DNA from: Agromyces kandeliae
Lineage (GTDB): Bacteria; Actinomycetota; Actinomycetes; Actinomycetales; Microbacteriaceae
Length of the DNA stretch: 64,000 nt
Direction: 5' to 3'
Assembly: GCF_009674665.1 (NCBI RefSeq)
Contig: NZ_WKJD01000012.1
Location: forward strand, 310,001-374,000
The notes under the pieces were generated by a model. The model did not search any database. It was not told the DNA's origin and saw nothing but the letters and a program-made list of their open reading frames with translations. Position 1 is the first letter of the stretch. Each line of letters opens with the position of its first letter. Both the position numbers and the translations under genes were made by a program. Shown here in pieces: positions 5,939 to 19,495 of this stretch.

Positions 5939-6393
5939 GTCGCGACGACGGATGCCGCGCTCGCGCGGTCCCTCGGCGCGCCCTCGACACGGTGCTCGGG
6001 TGCCGGTCATCGCGATTCCGCACAGGTGTGGAAAATCTGTGGATTGTTAACGAGCAACCGCGCCACGACTGTTGAGACGCCGACCGGGCCTGTGCACAAC
6101 TCCGAACACCGGTCGTCGACGACGGATGCCGCTCACGTCGGTTTCCACACACCGTGCACAGAGCCGGGGGCCTCGCATCGGCGCCATCACGCGGATCTCC
6201 GAACGCCATCCACAGTTTCCACACCGGTTAACACCGTTAAGAGATACCTGGATTAACACACGGCGTTCGGCAACCTGGGATCGGGCGGGTCGGACGAGCC
6301 CCGGCCGCGCATCGGGGCAGGGGAAATCCCCGCCCCGGAAACAGGCGTCCGGATAGCATGGGAGCCATCCAGCACCTCCACGACGGGAGAACC
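5939..6393. other. oriC: dnaA-dnaN spacer, canonical oriC position
   Basis: The 455-bp spacer has many DnaA-box-like nonamers, all imperfect: TTTTCCACA (reverse, 6027-6035), CAATCCACA (reverse, 6038-6046), TTGTGCACA (reverse, 6091-6099), GTTTCCACA (6141-6149 and 6215-6223) and CCATCCACA (6206-6214). An AT-richer stretch with GGTTAACACCGTTAAG and GGATTAACAC (about 6226-6259) could be the unwinding element. This is the usual actinobacterial oriC site. No perfect TTATCCACA or TTGTCCACA was found here, unlike the cluster at 19052-19182. Confidence 0.65.
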
Positions 6394-7545
6394 GTGAAGT
6401 TCCAGGTCAATCGCGACGTCTTCAGTGAGGCCGTGTCGTTCGCCGTCAAGCTGCTGCCGCAGCGCACGACCCTTCCGATCCTCTCCGGCGTGCTGATCCA
6501 GGCGGAGGGCGACGGACTCGTCCTCTCGTCCTTTGACTACGAGGTCTCCTCGAGGACCGAGATCCAGGCCGACGTCGACGAGCCGGGCACCGTGCTCGTG
6601 TCCGGCCGGCTCCTCGCCGAGATCGCGGGCCGCCTCCCGAACGCGCCCGTGCGCGTGTCGACCGAGGAATCGCGGATCTCCGTGACGTGCGGGTCCGCGA
6701 GCTTCACGCTGCTGTCGATGCCCGTCGAGGAGTACCCGTCGATTCCCGAGATCGGCGAGCAGACCGGCGTCGTGCCCGCCGAGGAGTTCGCATCGGCCGT
6801 CGCGCAGGTCGCGGTCGCGGCATCCCGCGACGACGTCACCCCCGTCATCACCGGCGTGCAGCTCGAGGTTCGCGAGACGAACCTGAGTCTGGTCGCCACC
6901 GACCGCTACCGGGTCGCGATCCGCGAGATCGACTGGGACGGCGGCGGCGTGGCCGGCGACACCGAGGCGACGACGGCCCTGGTCCCCGCGCGCACGCTGC
7001 AGGAGGTCGGCAAGACGTTCGGCCACTCGGGCACCATCTCGGTCGCGATCACGAGTCGCGACGACCGCGAGCTCATCGCGTTCTCGGCCGATCGGAAGAC
7101 GGTCACCAGCCTGCTCATCAAGGGCAACTTCCCGCCCGTGCGCCGGCTGTTCCCCGAGACGGTCGACAACTACGCGGTGATGAACACCGCCGAGCTCATC
7201 GAGGCGACCCGTCGCGTGGCGCTGGTGCTCGAGCGCGAGGCCGCGCTCCGCTACTCGTTCACGGCAGACGGACTCACGCTCGAGGCCATCGGCAGCGAGC
7301 AGGCCCAGGCGTCCGAGTCCATCGATGCGATCCTCACCGGCGACGACACGGTCGTCTCCCTGAAGCCGCAGTTCCTCCTCGACGGCCTGCAGGCCGTGCC
7401 CAGCGAGTTCGTGCGCATCTCCTTCACCAAGACCGAGAACCCCAACAAGCCGGGGCCCGTGCTCATCACGAGCCAGACGTCGCGCGAACAGGCGGGCGCC
7501 GACAGCTACCGCTACCTGCTGCAGCCGAACCTGCTGCTGCGATAG
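6394..7545 (+). CDS. dnaN: DNA polymerase III subunit beta (sliding clamp)
   Basis: This 383-residue protein forms the dimeric ring that tethers polymerase to DNA. It starts VKFQVNRDVFSEAVSFAVKL and contains RTTLPILSGVLI, characteristic of the first clamp domain, followed by two further clamp domains; VRRLFPE lies in the second half. It ends in LLQPNLLLR, a typical clamp C-terminus (usually PMRL or similar). The GTG at 6394 was chosen because GGGAGA lies 4 bp upstream and because family members start at this point; an ATG at 6358 would add 12 unlikely residues. It is followed closely by recF. Confidence 0.95.
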   Translation: MKFQVNRDVFSEAVSFAVKLLPQRTTLPILSGVLIQAEGDGLVLSSFDYEVSSRTEIQADVDEPGTVLVSGRLLAEIAGRLPNAPVRVSTEESRISVTCGSASFTLLSMPVEEYPSIPEIGEQTGVVPAEEFASAVAQVAVAASRDDVTPVITGVQLEVRETNLSLVATDRYRVAIREIDWDGGGVAGDTEATTALVPARTLQEVGKTFGHSGTISVAITSRDDRELIAFSADRKTVTSLLIKGNFPPVRRLFPETVDNYAVMNTAELIEATRRVALVLEREAALRYSFTADGLTLEAIGSEQAQASESIDAILTGDDTVVSLKPQFLLDGLQAVPSEFVRISFTKTENPNKPGPVLITSQTSREQAGADSYRYLLQPNLLLR

Positions 7546-18135: not shown

Positions 18136-18993
18136 GTGAGCGACCCGGCGCCCGAGCGCGCGAGCACCTGCTATCGGCACCCCGACCGGCAGAGCTTCGT
18201 GCTGTGCCAGCGCTGCGGTCGCACCATCTGCGGGGAGTGCCAGACCCCCGCACCGGTCGGCGTCATCTGCCCCGAATGCATGCGCGAGCAGCGCGCGTCG
18301 GCACCGCGGACGAAGCCCGCAGTGCTGACGCGCGCCCGCTCGGCCGCTGGTCGCGGCGCACCGGTGGTGACGTATTCCATCATCGGCATCACCTTCGCGG
18401 TCTACCTCCTGCAGCTCATCCCCGGGCTCGCGATCACCGACCGCCTCCTCTACGCCGGTGTCTACTCGCTGCCGTTCAACTTCGAGCCGTGGCGCATGAT
18501 CACGTCGATGCTGGTGCACTCGACGGCACTGATCTTCCACGTCGCGCTCAACATGTACACGCTCTGGATCTTCGGCCAGCTGCTCGAGAACGTGCTCGGG
18601 CGCTGGCGGTTCCTCTCGCTCTACCTCATCTCCGGCCTGGGCGGGTCGGTCGCCGTGCTCTGGCTCTCCGACCCCCGGACCGGCGTCGTCGGCGCGTCGG
18701 GTGCGATCTTCGGCCTCATGGGCGCCTTCCTCGTGATCCAACGCAGGCTCGGCGGCAACGCCACGCAACTGCTGATCCTCGTCGGCATCAACCTCGTGAT
18801 CGGGTTCGTCCCGGGCTTCAACATCGCCTGGCAGGCGCACCTGGGCGGTCTCGTCGTGGGCGCGCTCGTCGGCCTGATCTACGTCGAGACCCGCAAGCGC
18901 GACCAACGCACACTGCAGGTGGTCCTGCTCGCGGCGCTCGTCCTGGTGCTGCTGATCCTCAGCCTGAGGTACTTCTTCTTCCCGGTCTTCTGA
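18136..18993 (+). CDS. Rhomboid family intramembrane serine protease with N-terminal zinc ribbon
   Basis: This 285-residue membrane protein begins with a small Cys-rich module, residues about 12-48 (CYRHP, CQRCGRTICGEC, CPEC), that resembles a B-box/zinc ribbon. Six or more membrane helices follow. The rhomboid active-site motif GASG has Ser188, and His235 lies in WQAHLGG. HVALNMYTLW, the usual HxxxN element, is also present. It should cleave transmembrane substrates. The start is a GTG at 18136. It ends before the DnaA-box cluster. Confidence 0.92.
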   Translation: MSDPAPERASTCYRHPDRQSFVLCQRCGRTICGECQTPAPVGVICPECMREQRASAPRTKPAVLTRARSAAGRGAPVVTYSIIGITFAVYLLQLIPGLAITDRLLYAGVYSLPFNFEPWRMITSMLVHSTALIFHVALNMYTLWIFGQLLENVLGRWRFLSLYLISGLGGSVAVLWLSDPRTGVVGASGAIFGLMGAFLVIQRRLGGNATQLLILVGINLVIGFVPGFNIAWQAHLGGLVVGALVGLIYVETRKRDQRTLQVVLLAALVLVLLILSLRYFFFPVF

Positions 18994-19051: not shown

Positions 19052-19182
19052 TTATCCACAACGCTGTCCACAGTTGGGGAGAGTTACACCGGTGTGATTC
19101 CACACGATGTCCGGAATTCCGGGCTTTCCACCTCTCCACAGGGTGTGGACGGTGTGGAGAAACCTGTGGAAGGTGTGGATAA
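19052..19182. other. Dense DnaA-box cluster (second origin-like or DnaA-titration locus)
   Basis: Two perfect TTATCCACA boxes bound a 131-bp segment in inverted orientation (19052-19060 forward, 19174-19182 reverse). Between them lie CTGTCCACA (19064-19072), GATTCCACA (19096-19104), CTCTCCACA (19132-19140) on the forward strand, and CCGTCCACA (19144-19152), TTCTCCACA (19153-19161) and CCTTCCACA (19165-19173) on the reverse strand. Left-half boxes all point one way and right-half boxes the other. The spacer between the convergent rhomboid and crgA genes is otherwise empty. Whether it is an origin or a DnaA-regulatory site is not decided by sequence alone. Confidence 0.85.
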
Positions 19183-19201: not shown

Positions 19202-19235
19202 AAGCGGGGCGGATGCCGCAGCATCCGCCCCGCTT
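19202..19235. terminator. Bidirectional intrinsic terminator
   Basis: AAGCGGGGCGGATGC (19202-19216) pairs perfectly with GCATCCGCCCCGCTT (19221-19235) around the loop CGCA: a 15-bp stem with A/T at its foot. It separates the rightward rhomboid gene from leftward crgA. Confidence 0.85.
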
Positions 19236-19255: not shown

Positions 19256-19495
19256 TCAGCGCCAGCGAGTGGTCATGAGGAAGCCGATGAAGGCGATGCC
19301 GAATCCGACGAGGATGTTCCACGAACCGAGCGCGGCCACCGGCAGCGCACCCTGGCTCACGTAGAAGAGGATGATCCAGACCAGGCCGAGCAGCATGAAG
19401 CCGAACATGACGGGCTTGAACCAGACGGGATTCGGCGCGTCCTCGCCGCTCGGCTGCTCCGCGCGCGCGGGCTTCGAAGAATTGGTGCGTGCCAT
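19256..19495 (-). CDS. crgA: Cell division protein CrgA
   Basis: This 79-residue protein has a charged N-terminus (MARTNSSKPARAEQPSGEDA), the family motif PNPVWFKPVMFGFMLLGLVW, and two membrane helices (about 32-52 and 62-78), ending GFLMTTRWR. CrgA is an actinobacterial divisome and septation factor that interacts with FtsZ, FtsI and other division proteins. The upstream open frame is GC-driven; the ATG at 19495 matches the family start. It is convergent with the rhomboid gene and divergent from the small membrane gene at 19592. Confidence 0.93.
   Translation of the reverse strand: MARTNSSKPARAEQPSGEDAPNPVWFKPVMFGFMLLGLVWIILFYVSQGALPVAALGSWNILVGFGIAFIGFLMTTRWR

Follow-up and report, generated by a model that had tools for sequence, protein, structure and literature searches.

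In a 64,000-nucleotide stretch of the Agromyces kandeliae genome (positions 310,001 to 374,000 of contig NZ_WKJD01000012.1; hereafter the window), a dense cluster of DnaA boxes lies in the spacer between a rhomboid-family gene and the convergent cell-division gene crgA. We propose that the left end of this cluster, 19052-19099, is an element of DnaA control that lies outside oriC and is conserved in actinobacteria; carrying an operator for McdR, a cell-cycle regulator described in mycobacteria, it would link initiation to division (probability roughly 0.55 for this reading as a whole). That 19052-19099 is a selected DnaA-binding control site is very likely. This conserved part consists of three boxes in nearly fixed geometry and a palindrome that overlaps the last of them, while the right half of the cluster (19132-19182) is a lineage-specific extension.

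The cluster was first noticed in a sequence-only reading of the window, which described it as dense, mirror-symmetrical and situated 13 kb from dnaA, and most of this description holds. Two perfect TTATCCACA boxes are present in inverted orientation at 19052 (+) and 19174 (-), and when up to two mismatches are allowed further sites appear at 19064 (+), 19132 (+) and 19153 (-). With the degenerate box TTRTCCACA and the same tolerance, six sites fall within 131 bp, which is the top count of the 64-kb window. TCCACA cores start at 19055, 19067, 19099 and 19135 on the plus strand and at 19144, 19153, 19165 and 19174 on the minus strand. Against these 8 cores in 131 bp, 200 first-order Markov simulations, each of 64 kb, gave a count of 1.33 on average, and no 131-bp stretch in them contained more than 3. 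The coordinates likewise agree with a position between the convergent rhomboid and crgA genes, 13.1 kb from dnaA, and the box search agrees that the dnaA-dnaN spacer, the expected oriC, has no perfect box. A scan of the whole genome (3.78 Mb), which that reading had suggested as a check, found five perfect TTATCCACA boxes, two of which fall in the cluster. The mirror layout is correct for the TCCACA cores, four of which face each way; it is not strict, since a weaker minus-strand box, CTCTCCCCA, lies at 19075-19083 in the left half.

Conservation of the spacer across the Microbacteriaceae, a second check suggested at that time, was confirmed. A perfect TTRTCCACA is found no further than 450 bp 3' of crgA in 71 of the 77 loci that were long enough to be scored, and in 6 of the 683 remaining 450-bp windows taken from these loci. 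For the whole class, a perfect box was found 3' of crgA in 40 of 60 loci and in 1 of 116 neighbouring windows; these 60 loci were chosen by hand from crgA matches, one (L118) ends at a contig edge, and weak crgA matches, L159 and L160 for example, are possibly spurious. Perfect-box, outer-gap and motif-overlap counts were all obtained with regular expressions. The mirror, on which the sequence-only reading laid stress, is lineage-specific and not what is conserved: a plus-strand perfect box followed by a minus-strand perfect box is present in 13 of the 77 Microbacteriaceae loci.

What the alignment of the loci revealed was a unit of about 50 bp, consisting of the palindrome and three boxes: the first is directed away from the palindrome, the second occupies the middle and the third is directed back towards it. 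The two outer boxes are separated by 13-17 bp in each of the 47 aligned rows, and by exactly 14 bp in 36 of them. In 35 rows the central box faces the palindrome, in 10 it faces the opposite way and in 2 it can be read both ways; whichever way it faces, two of the boxes stand head-to-head and the remaining one is in tandem. A weight matrix gives the window unit a score of 41.7, compared with 2.4 for the highest-scoring site outside the cluster. The same unit as in the window is carried by two loci of family f7 (L128 and L132, probably Mycobacteriaceae).

Whole genomes were searched with a model of the unit that was built from sequence only, using a match threshold of E ≤0.01. This model matches 143 of 158 class genomes. 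Among the matches listed, the best match could be placed in 117 of the 158 genomes (41 unplaced), six of which were without a listed crgA place. The best match lies within 2.5 kb 3' of crgA in 93 of the 111 others, at a median distance of 58 bp. When the 35 training genomes are removed, of which 34 have their best match near crgA, 59 of the 76 held-out best matches that were placed still lie near crgA, with the proviso that some test genomes may belong to species that also supplied named training rows.

The association also extends beyond the class. All 20 genomes chosen from other classes of the phylum have crgA (PF06781), and 19 of them, the exception being G281, have a unit match 0-374 bp 3' of this gene. 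The crgA-side match is the genome's best in 16 of the 20, and is present but not the best in G270, G271 and G280. None of these genomes contributed training rows. Because they were picked from the stronger matches, passing over partial matches in G272, G226, G223 and G209, they show location and not frequency. The distance to dnaA was determined for 32 genomes and ranges from 9 to 131 kb with a median of 23 kb; this set comprises 32 of 34 genomes (without G088 and G178), and for some of them the crgA or palindrome place was used instead of the model match. The unit is not merely dragged along by crgA, because several lineages have it away from this gene: in G064, a small genome of family f23, it adjoins a rhomboid gene at a distance of 10.5 kb from dnaA, crgA being located far from there, and in four loci from Rathayibacter or an unclassified relative and two Naasia loci the unit or its remains are found ~0.8-1.0 kb from crgA.

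The palindrome AGTTACACCGGTGTGATT, which the sequence-only reading did not include, overlaps box 3 and fits a known operator. McdR (Rv1830), a MerR-family cell-cycle regulator of mycobacteria, represses whiB2 by binding AATnACAnnnnTGTnATT (PMC9040748), and the window palindrome agrees with this motif at 11 of the 12 specified bases with the spacer length kept. At least 10 of 12 motif bases were found 3' of crgA in all 77 Microbacteriaceae loci (stretches of up to 1500 bp) versus 1 of 457 controls (450 bp), and in 35 of 60 class loci versus 0 of 116 controls (all 450 bp). A box core adjoins the motif in 109 of the 112 loci that have it, and in 100 of these 109 the motif and the box overlap by 1-2 bp; by the regular-expression rule, L098, L099 and L112 have the motif without an adjoining core. 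Based on this fit we predict that the palindrome is an McdR operator, to which McdR would bind in the window as well. It has the same 18-bp motif and the same spacer length as the operator at whiB2 (PMC9040748); unlike that operator, the window copy shares bases with a DnaA box and is situated where two genes converge, not at a promoter.

The proposed regulator appears to be widespread, since a McdR homologue is present in all 54 genomes chosen from the class and the phylum. In A. kandeliae it is encoded at 1408-1962 of locus L212, after an odhI/garA-type gene and ftsR. We take the order odhI/garA-type gene, ftsR, McdR to be that of Mycobacterium tuberculosis, and this order, together with the presence of the motif, suggests that the homologue is the Rv1830 orthologue.

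The palindrome recurs at other genes. In the A. kandeliae genome the pattern ATTACACNNGTGTNATT matches two places, one in the crgA unit and the other immediately upstream of a WhiB gene (PF02467). The latter site (contig C19; L177 2442-2459) has 12 of 12 bases of the McdR motif, so the McdR-whiB2 link of mycobacteria may hold in Agromyces; whiB2 is in this genome a name given by similarity, as Pfam says WhiB and NCBIfam gave no match. With at most one mismatch, ATTACACNNGTGTNATT matched 28 of 59 class genomes and the reversed control 2 of 59. A further scan matched 16 of 22 genomes and its reversed control 7 of 22, which means that some single palindromes are chance occurrences. Other palindromes were inspected in 30 chosen loci, representing 29 places. 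A whiB-type gene follows within ~330 bp downstream in 12 of these loci, from six families, sepX/glpR ~70 bp downstream in 2 (one identified by NCBIfam, one by similarity) and a rhomboid-gene unit in 1, while 15 have none of the genes looked for. In family f7, palindromes ~70 bp upstream of sepX/glpR are located at L184 2453 and L185 2512. We presume that MSMEG_5468/Rv0996 is sepX/glpR, which would fit these f7 palindromes. MSMEG_5468/Rv0996 is a published McdR target (PMC9040748). At L187 2541-2600 (genome G042) a palindrome and DnaA-box-like sequences occur together away from crgA and may represent another copy of the unit.

DnaA binding at this place beside crgA is already known from mycobacteria (PMC7738170). 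Hicks et al. (2020) used DNA pull-down to identify five strongly DnaA-bound regions in M. tuberculosis and recovered the homologous regions of a second mycobacterium by chromatin immunoprecipitation; binding at the Rv0010c-Rv0011c (crgA) spacer was observed in two mycobacteria by pull-down, electrophoretic mobility shift assay and chromatin immunoprecipitation sequencing (PMC7738170). Recurrent mutations of clinical strains hit an inverted pair of box-like sequences in this spacer; rebuilt site mutants had longer cells, as in dnaA mutants, and were compared with weakened dnaA alleles (PMC7738170). The mycobacterial and window sites share their place relative to crgA and a DnaA-box cluster with an inverted pair, which in the window is formed by boxes 2 and 3. 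They differ in that the window cluster continues into a second half, where a perfect box mirrors box 1, and in that the published account of the mycobacterial site describes neither the third-box geometry nor an McdR-type operator (PMC7738170). Its authors saw no obvious correspondence to this site in other species (PMC7738170). With boxes kept in the class and beyond, and DnaA binding in two mycobacteria, the suggestion of the sequence-only reading that the cluster is a DnaA control site outside oriC is well supported; its other suggestion, that the cluster is oriC itself, fares worse, as discussed below.

The arrangement of the boxes can be compared with control sites of Escherichia coli, namely the DnaA-reactivating sequences (DARS), which promote the release of ADP from DnaA, and datA, which has an IHF-binding site and acts in DnaA-ATP hydrolysis. 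The DARS core has three boxes, one of them opposite to the other two (PMC5742627), and the window triad follows this orientation rule. The tandem offset is 12 bp in both DARS1 and the window, and where DARS1 and DARS2 have IHF/Fis sites the window has the McdR-type operator. The E. coli locus datA is likewise a DnaA-box cluster outside oriC, but its essential boxes all point one way (PMC5742627), a rule that is broken by the conserved head-to-head boxes 2 and 3. In topology the window boxes resemble DARS more closely than datA.

In the mechanism that we propose, DnaA would assemble on the three boxes, with boxes 3 and 2 as the head-to-head pair and box 1 in tandem with box 2. McdR would bind the palindrome and, through its 2-bp overlap with box 3, gate or help the DnaA complex. 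The element would most likely promote DnaA function in the manner of a DARS, by nucleotide exchange or by assembly, and would tie initiation to the division programme, which McdR sets through whiB2 as well. We infer McdR binding at the window site, as well as the sign and the chemistry of the effect. We lean to a DnaA-promoting site because of the DARS orientation rule and because the mycobacterial site mutants are hypomorph-like, and we would give a DARS-like effect a little less than an even chance. A wider formulation, in which the unit is a checkpoint element across the Actinomycetota and McdR on the box-overlapping operator switches DnaA activation at a DARS-like triad, is put forward tentatively and with the odds somewhat against it.

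Several observations weigh against this proposal. Fewer than 10 of the 12 McdR motif bases are present in 25 of the 60 class loci. The palindrome is absent from eight loci of family f19 (L144-L151, probably Streptomyces), where the best candidates have 7-8 of 12 bases, and a McdR homologue is nevertheless present in all five f19 genomes searched. The unit model has no match in 15 of the 158 class genomes (nine from f19, five from f17 and one from f27), and among the matches listed 18 of the 111 placed best matches lie elsewhere than at crgA, including those of eight small f23 genomes. The head-to-head offset is 14 in DARS1 and DARS2 (first pair, read by eye), compared with 11 in the window. 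Neither crgA nor DnaA appears in the main text of the McdR paper, where three of the five peaks obtained in vitro are named (PMC9040748). The initiation rate was unchanged in the mycobacterial dnaA mutants and, according to the discussion of that paper, in both mutant classes (PMC7738170). Such an unchanged rate is hard to reconcile with an element that strongly promotes initiation; a role on the division side, or a sink, would be compatible with it.

A sink or inactivator of DnaA, of the datA or DnaA-box-cluster type, would be a near-origin cluster that doubles early and lowers free or ATP-bound DnaA, with the palindrome tuning its occupancy. The two perfect and many weak boxes would suit this role, as would the distances to dnaA given above, and clusters of Streptomyces coelicolor and Bacillus subtilis are cited as repressing untimely initiation (PMC5742627). 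However, the conserved pair in the window is head-to-head and the essential datA boxes are one-directional (PMC5742627), the mycobacterial site mutants resemble weakened dnaA alleles where loss of a sink predicts otherwise (PMC7738170), and the rigid spacing and overlapping operator exceed what a sink needs. We therefore consider a sink unlikely.

It is also conceivable that a regulator other than McdR binds the palindrome, for example a HigA2-like protein. HigA2 binds in vitro to an oligonucleotide at Rv0010c with the M. tuberculosis palindrome, and the authors of that study point out that this place is the DnaA interaction site (PMC11205783). This explanation is improbable in view of the agreement with the McdR motif, spacer length included, and the recurrence of the palindrome at whiB-type genes; McdR homologues occur in every one of the 54 genomes, and HigA2 itself was not searched for. 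Among the other candidates for the palindrome, a BldD site was rejected because its arms, which are 5 apart, do not fit. The BldM site TCACcCgnncGgGTGA has TNAC arms 8 apart, compared with 6 in the window palindrome (PMC4125116), and its distribution follows bldN (PMC4255298). The arms of the WhiA site GACAC do not fit (PMC4850268), MtrA binds direct repeats (PMC6265350) with a 7-bp half-site (PMC13189361), and FtsR has a different motif (PMC6683498).

Regulation by DnaA and/or McdR of crgA, the rhomboid gene or an undescribed transcript would be in keeping with crgA as the constant neighbour and with McdR being a transcription regulator (PMC9040748). Yet the window unit, palindrome included, lies between two gene 3' ends and not at the promoter of a target gene, and the unit of G064 sits by a rhomboid gene with crgA far off. 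Moreover, dnaA mutants showed no change in the expression of Rv0010c or Rv0011c (PMC7738170). Rfam gave a single match on the spacer, which covers the terminator hairpin and the crgA end, and its 30.6 bits are below the gathering score of 52.5; this speaks against such a transcript, and an RNA element was rejected on the same result. We give transcription control little credence.

A functional oriC or second origin is very improbable: perfect boxes are present here and absent from the dnaA-dnaN spacer, but the lowest 30-bp GC content is 47% here versus 37% in that spacer, and the mycobacterial crgA site and oriC are separate DnaA-bound regions (PMC7738170). The cluster is thus probably not oriC, a question that the cumulative GC skew of the window, with its minimum at 13.5 kb, does not decide.

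The f19 loci L144-L151 have several perfect boxes 3' of crgA. Smulczyk-Krawczyszyn 2006, which is cited in PMC5742627, reportedly described the DnaA-box clusters H69, H24 and D78 near oriC in S. coelicolor. These are similar to the window site in being box clusters near oriC, and dissimilar in that the f19 loci lack the palindrome. Going by the cosmid names, H69 might correspond to the crgA site and H24 to the dnaB site.

In the literature searched we did not find the box geometry, its extent in class and phylum or the overlapping McdR-type operator, although no search combined McdR and DnaA; nor did the searches return anything joining 'DnaA boxes' with crgA, or 'DnaA-reactivating sequence' with Actinobacteria. 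A site reported to be without an obvious counterpart outside mycobacteria is now seen as a near-rigid crgA-side element that many families of the class share with other classes of the phylum. In Mycobacterium smegmatis, McdR overexpression decreased the expression of division genes and increased the ori-proximal copy number (PMC9040748). The overlap with an McdR-type operator would join this finding and that of DnaA at crgA into one testable model, and the arrangement may help actinobacteria to tie initiation to division. If true, the checkpoint formulation would explain both the ori-proximal copy rise upon McdR overexpression and the mimicking of dnaA mutations by site mutations, and the unit would be a site at which a division transcription factor gates the activation of DnaA.

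Table 1. Features of the rhomboid-crgA spacer and its surroundings, in window coordinates.
Feature	Position	Strand	Remarks
DnaA box 1, perfect TTATCCACA	19052..19060	+	outer box of the conserved triad; box search and alignment
DnaA box 2, CTGTCCACA	19064..19072	+	middle box of the triad; tandem to box 1, 12-bp offset
DnaA box 3, CTCTCCCCA	19075..19083	-	head-to-head to box 2, 11-bp offset; matches the conserved box of other loci in the alignment
Palindrome AGTTACACCGGTGTGATT, predicted McdR operator	19082..19099	.	2-bp overlap with box 3; 11/12 specified bases of McdR motif AATnACAnnnnTGTnATT
Accessory box CTCTCCACA	19132..19140	+	lineage-specific half
Accessory box CCGTCCACA	19144..19152	-	
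Accessory box TTCTCCACA	19153..19161	-	
Accessory weak box CCTTCCACA	19165..19173	-	TCCACA core
Second perfect box TTATCCACA	19174..19182	-	mirror partner of box 1
Perfect inverted repeat, 15-bp arms	19202..19235	.	terminator-like, between convergent genes; outside the conserved unit
crgA, cell-division protein	19256..19495	-	PF06781; unit sits 3' of crgA
Rhomboid-family gene	18136..18993	+	PF01694; convergent with crgA
dnaA	4289..5938	+	TIGR00362; 13.1 kb from the cluster
dnaN	6358..7545		

A second DnaA-box cluster is located in the rplI-dnaB spacer, on the other side of dnaA, and contains TTATCCACA, TTGTCCACA and several weaker boxes. It lies at L001 4887-5242, which is contig C4 ~292.9-293.2 kb of the A. 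kandeliae genome, ~17 kb upstream of the window start, and it corresponds to the mycobacterial DnaA site upstream of dnaB (PMC7738170). The remaining perfect DnaA boxes of the genome are found at C19:329246 with C19:330220 (L003) and at C14:186642 (L004).
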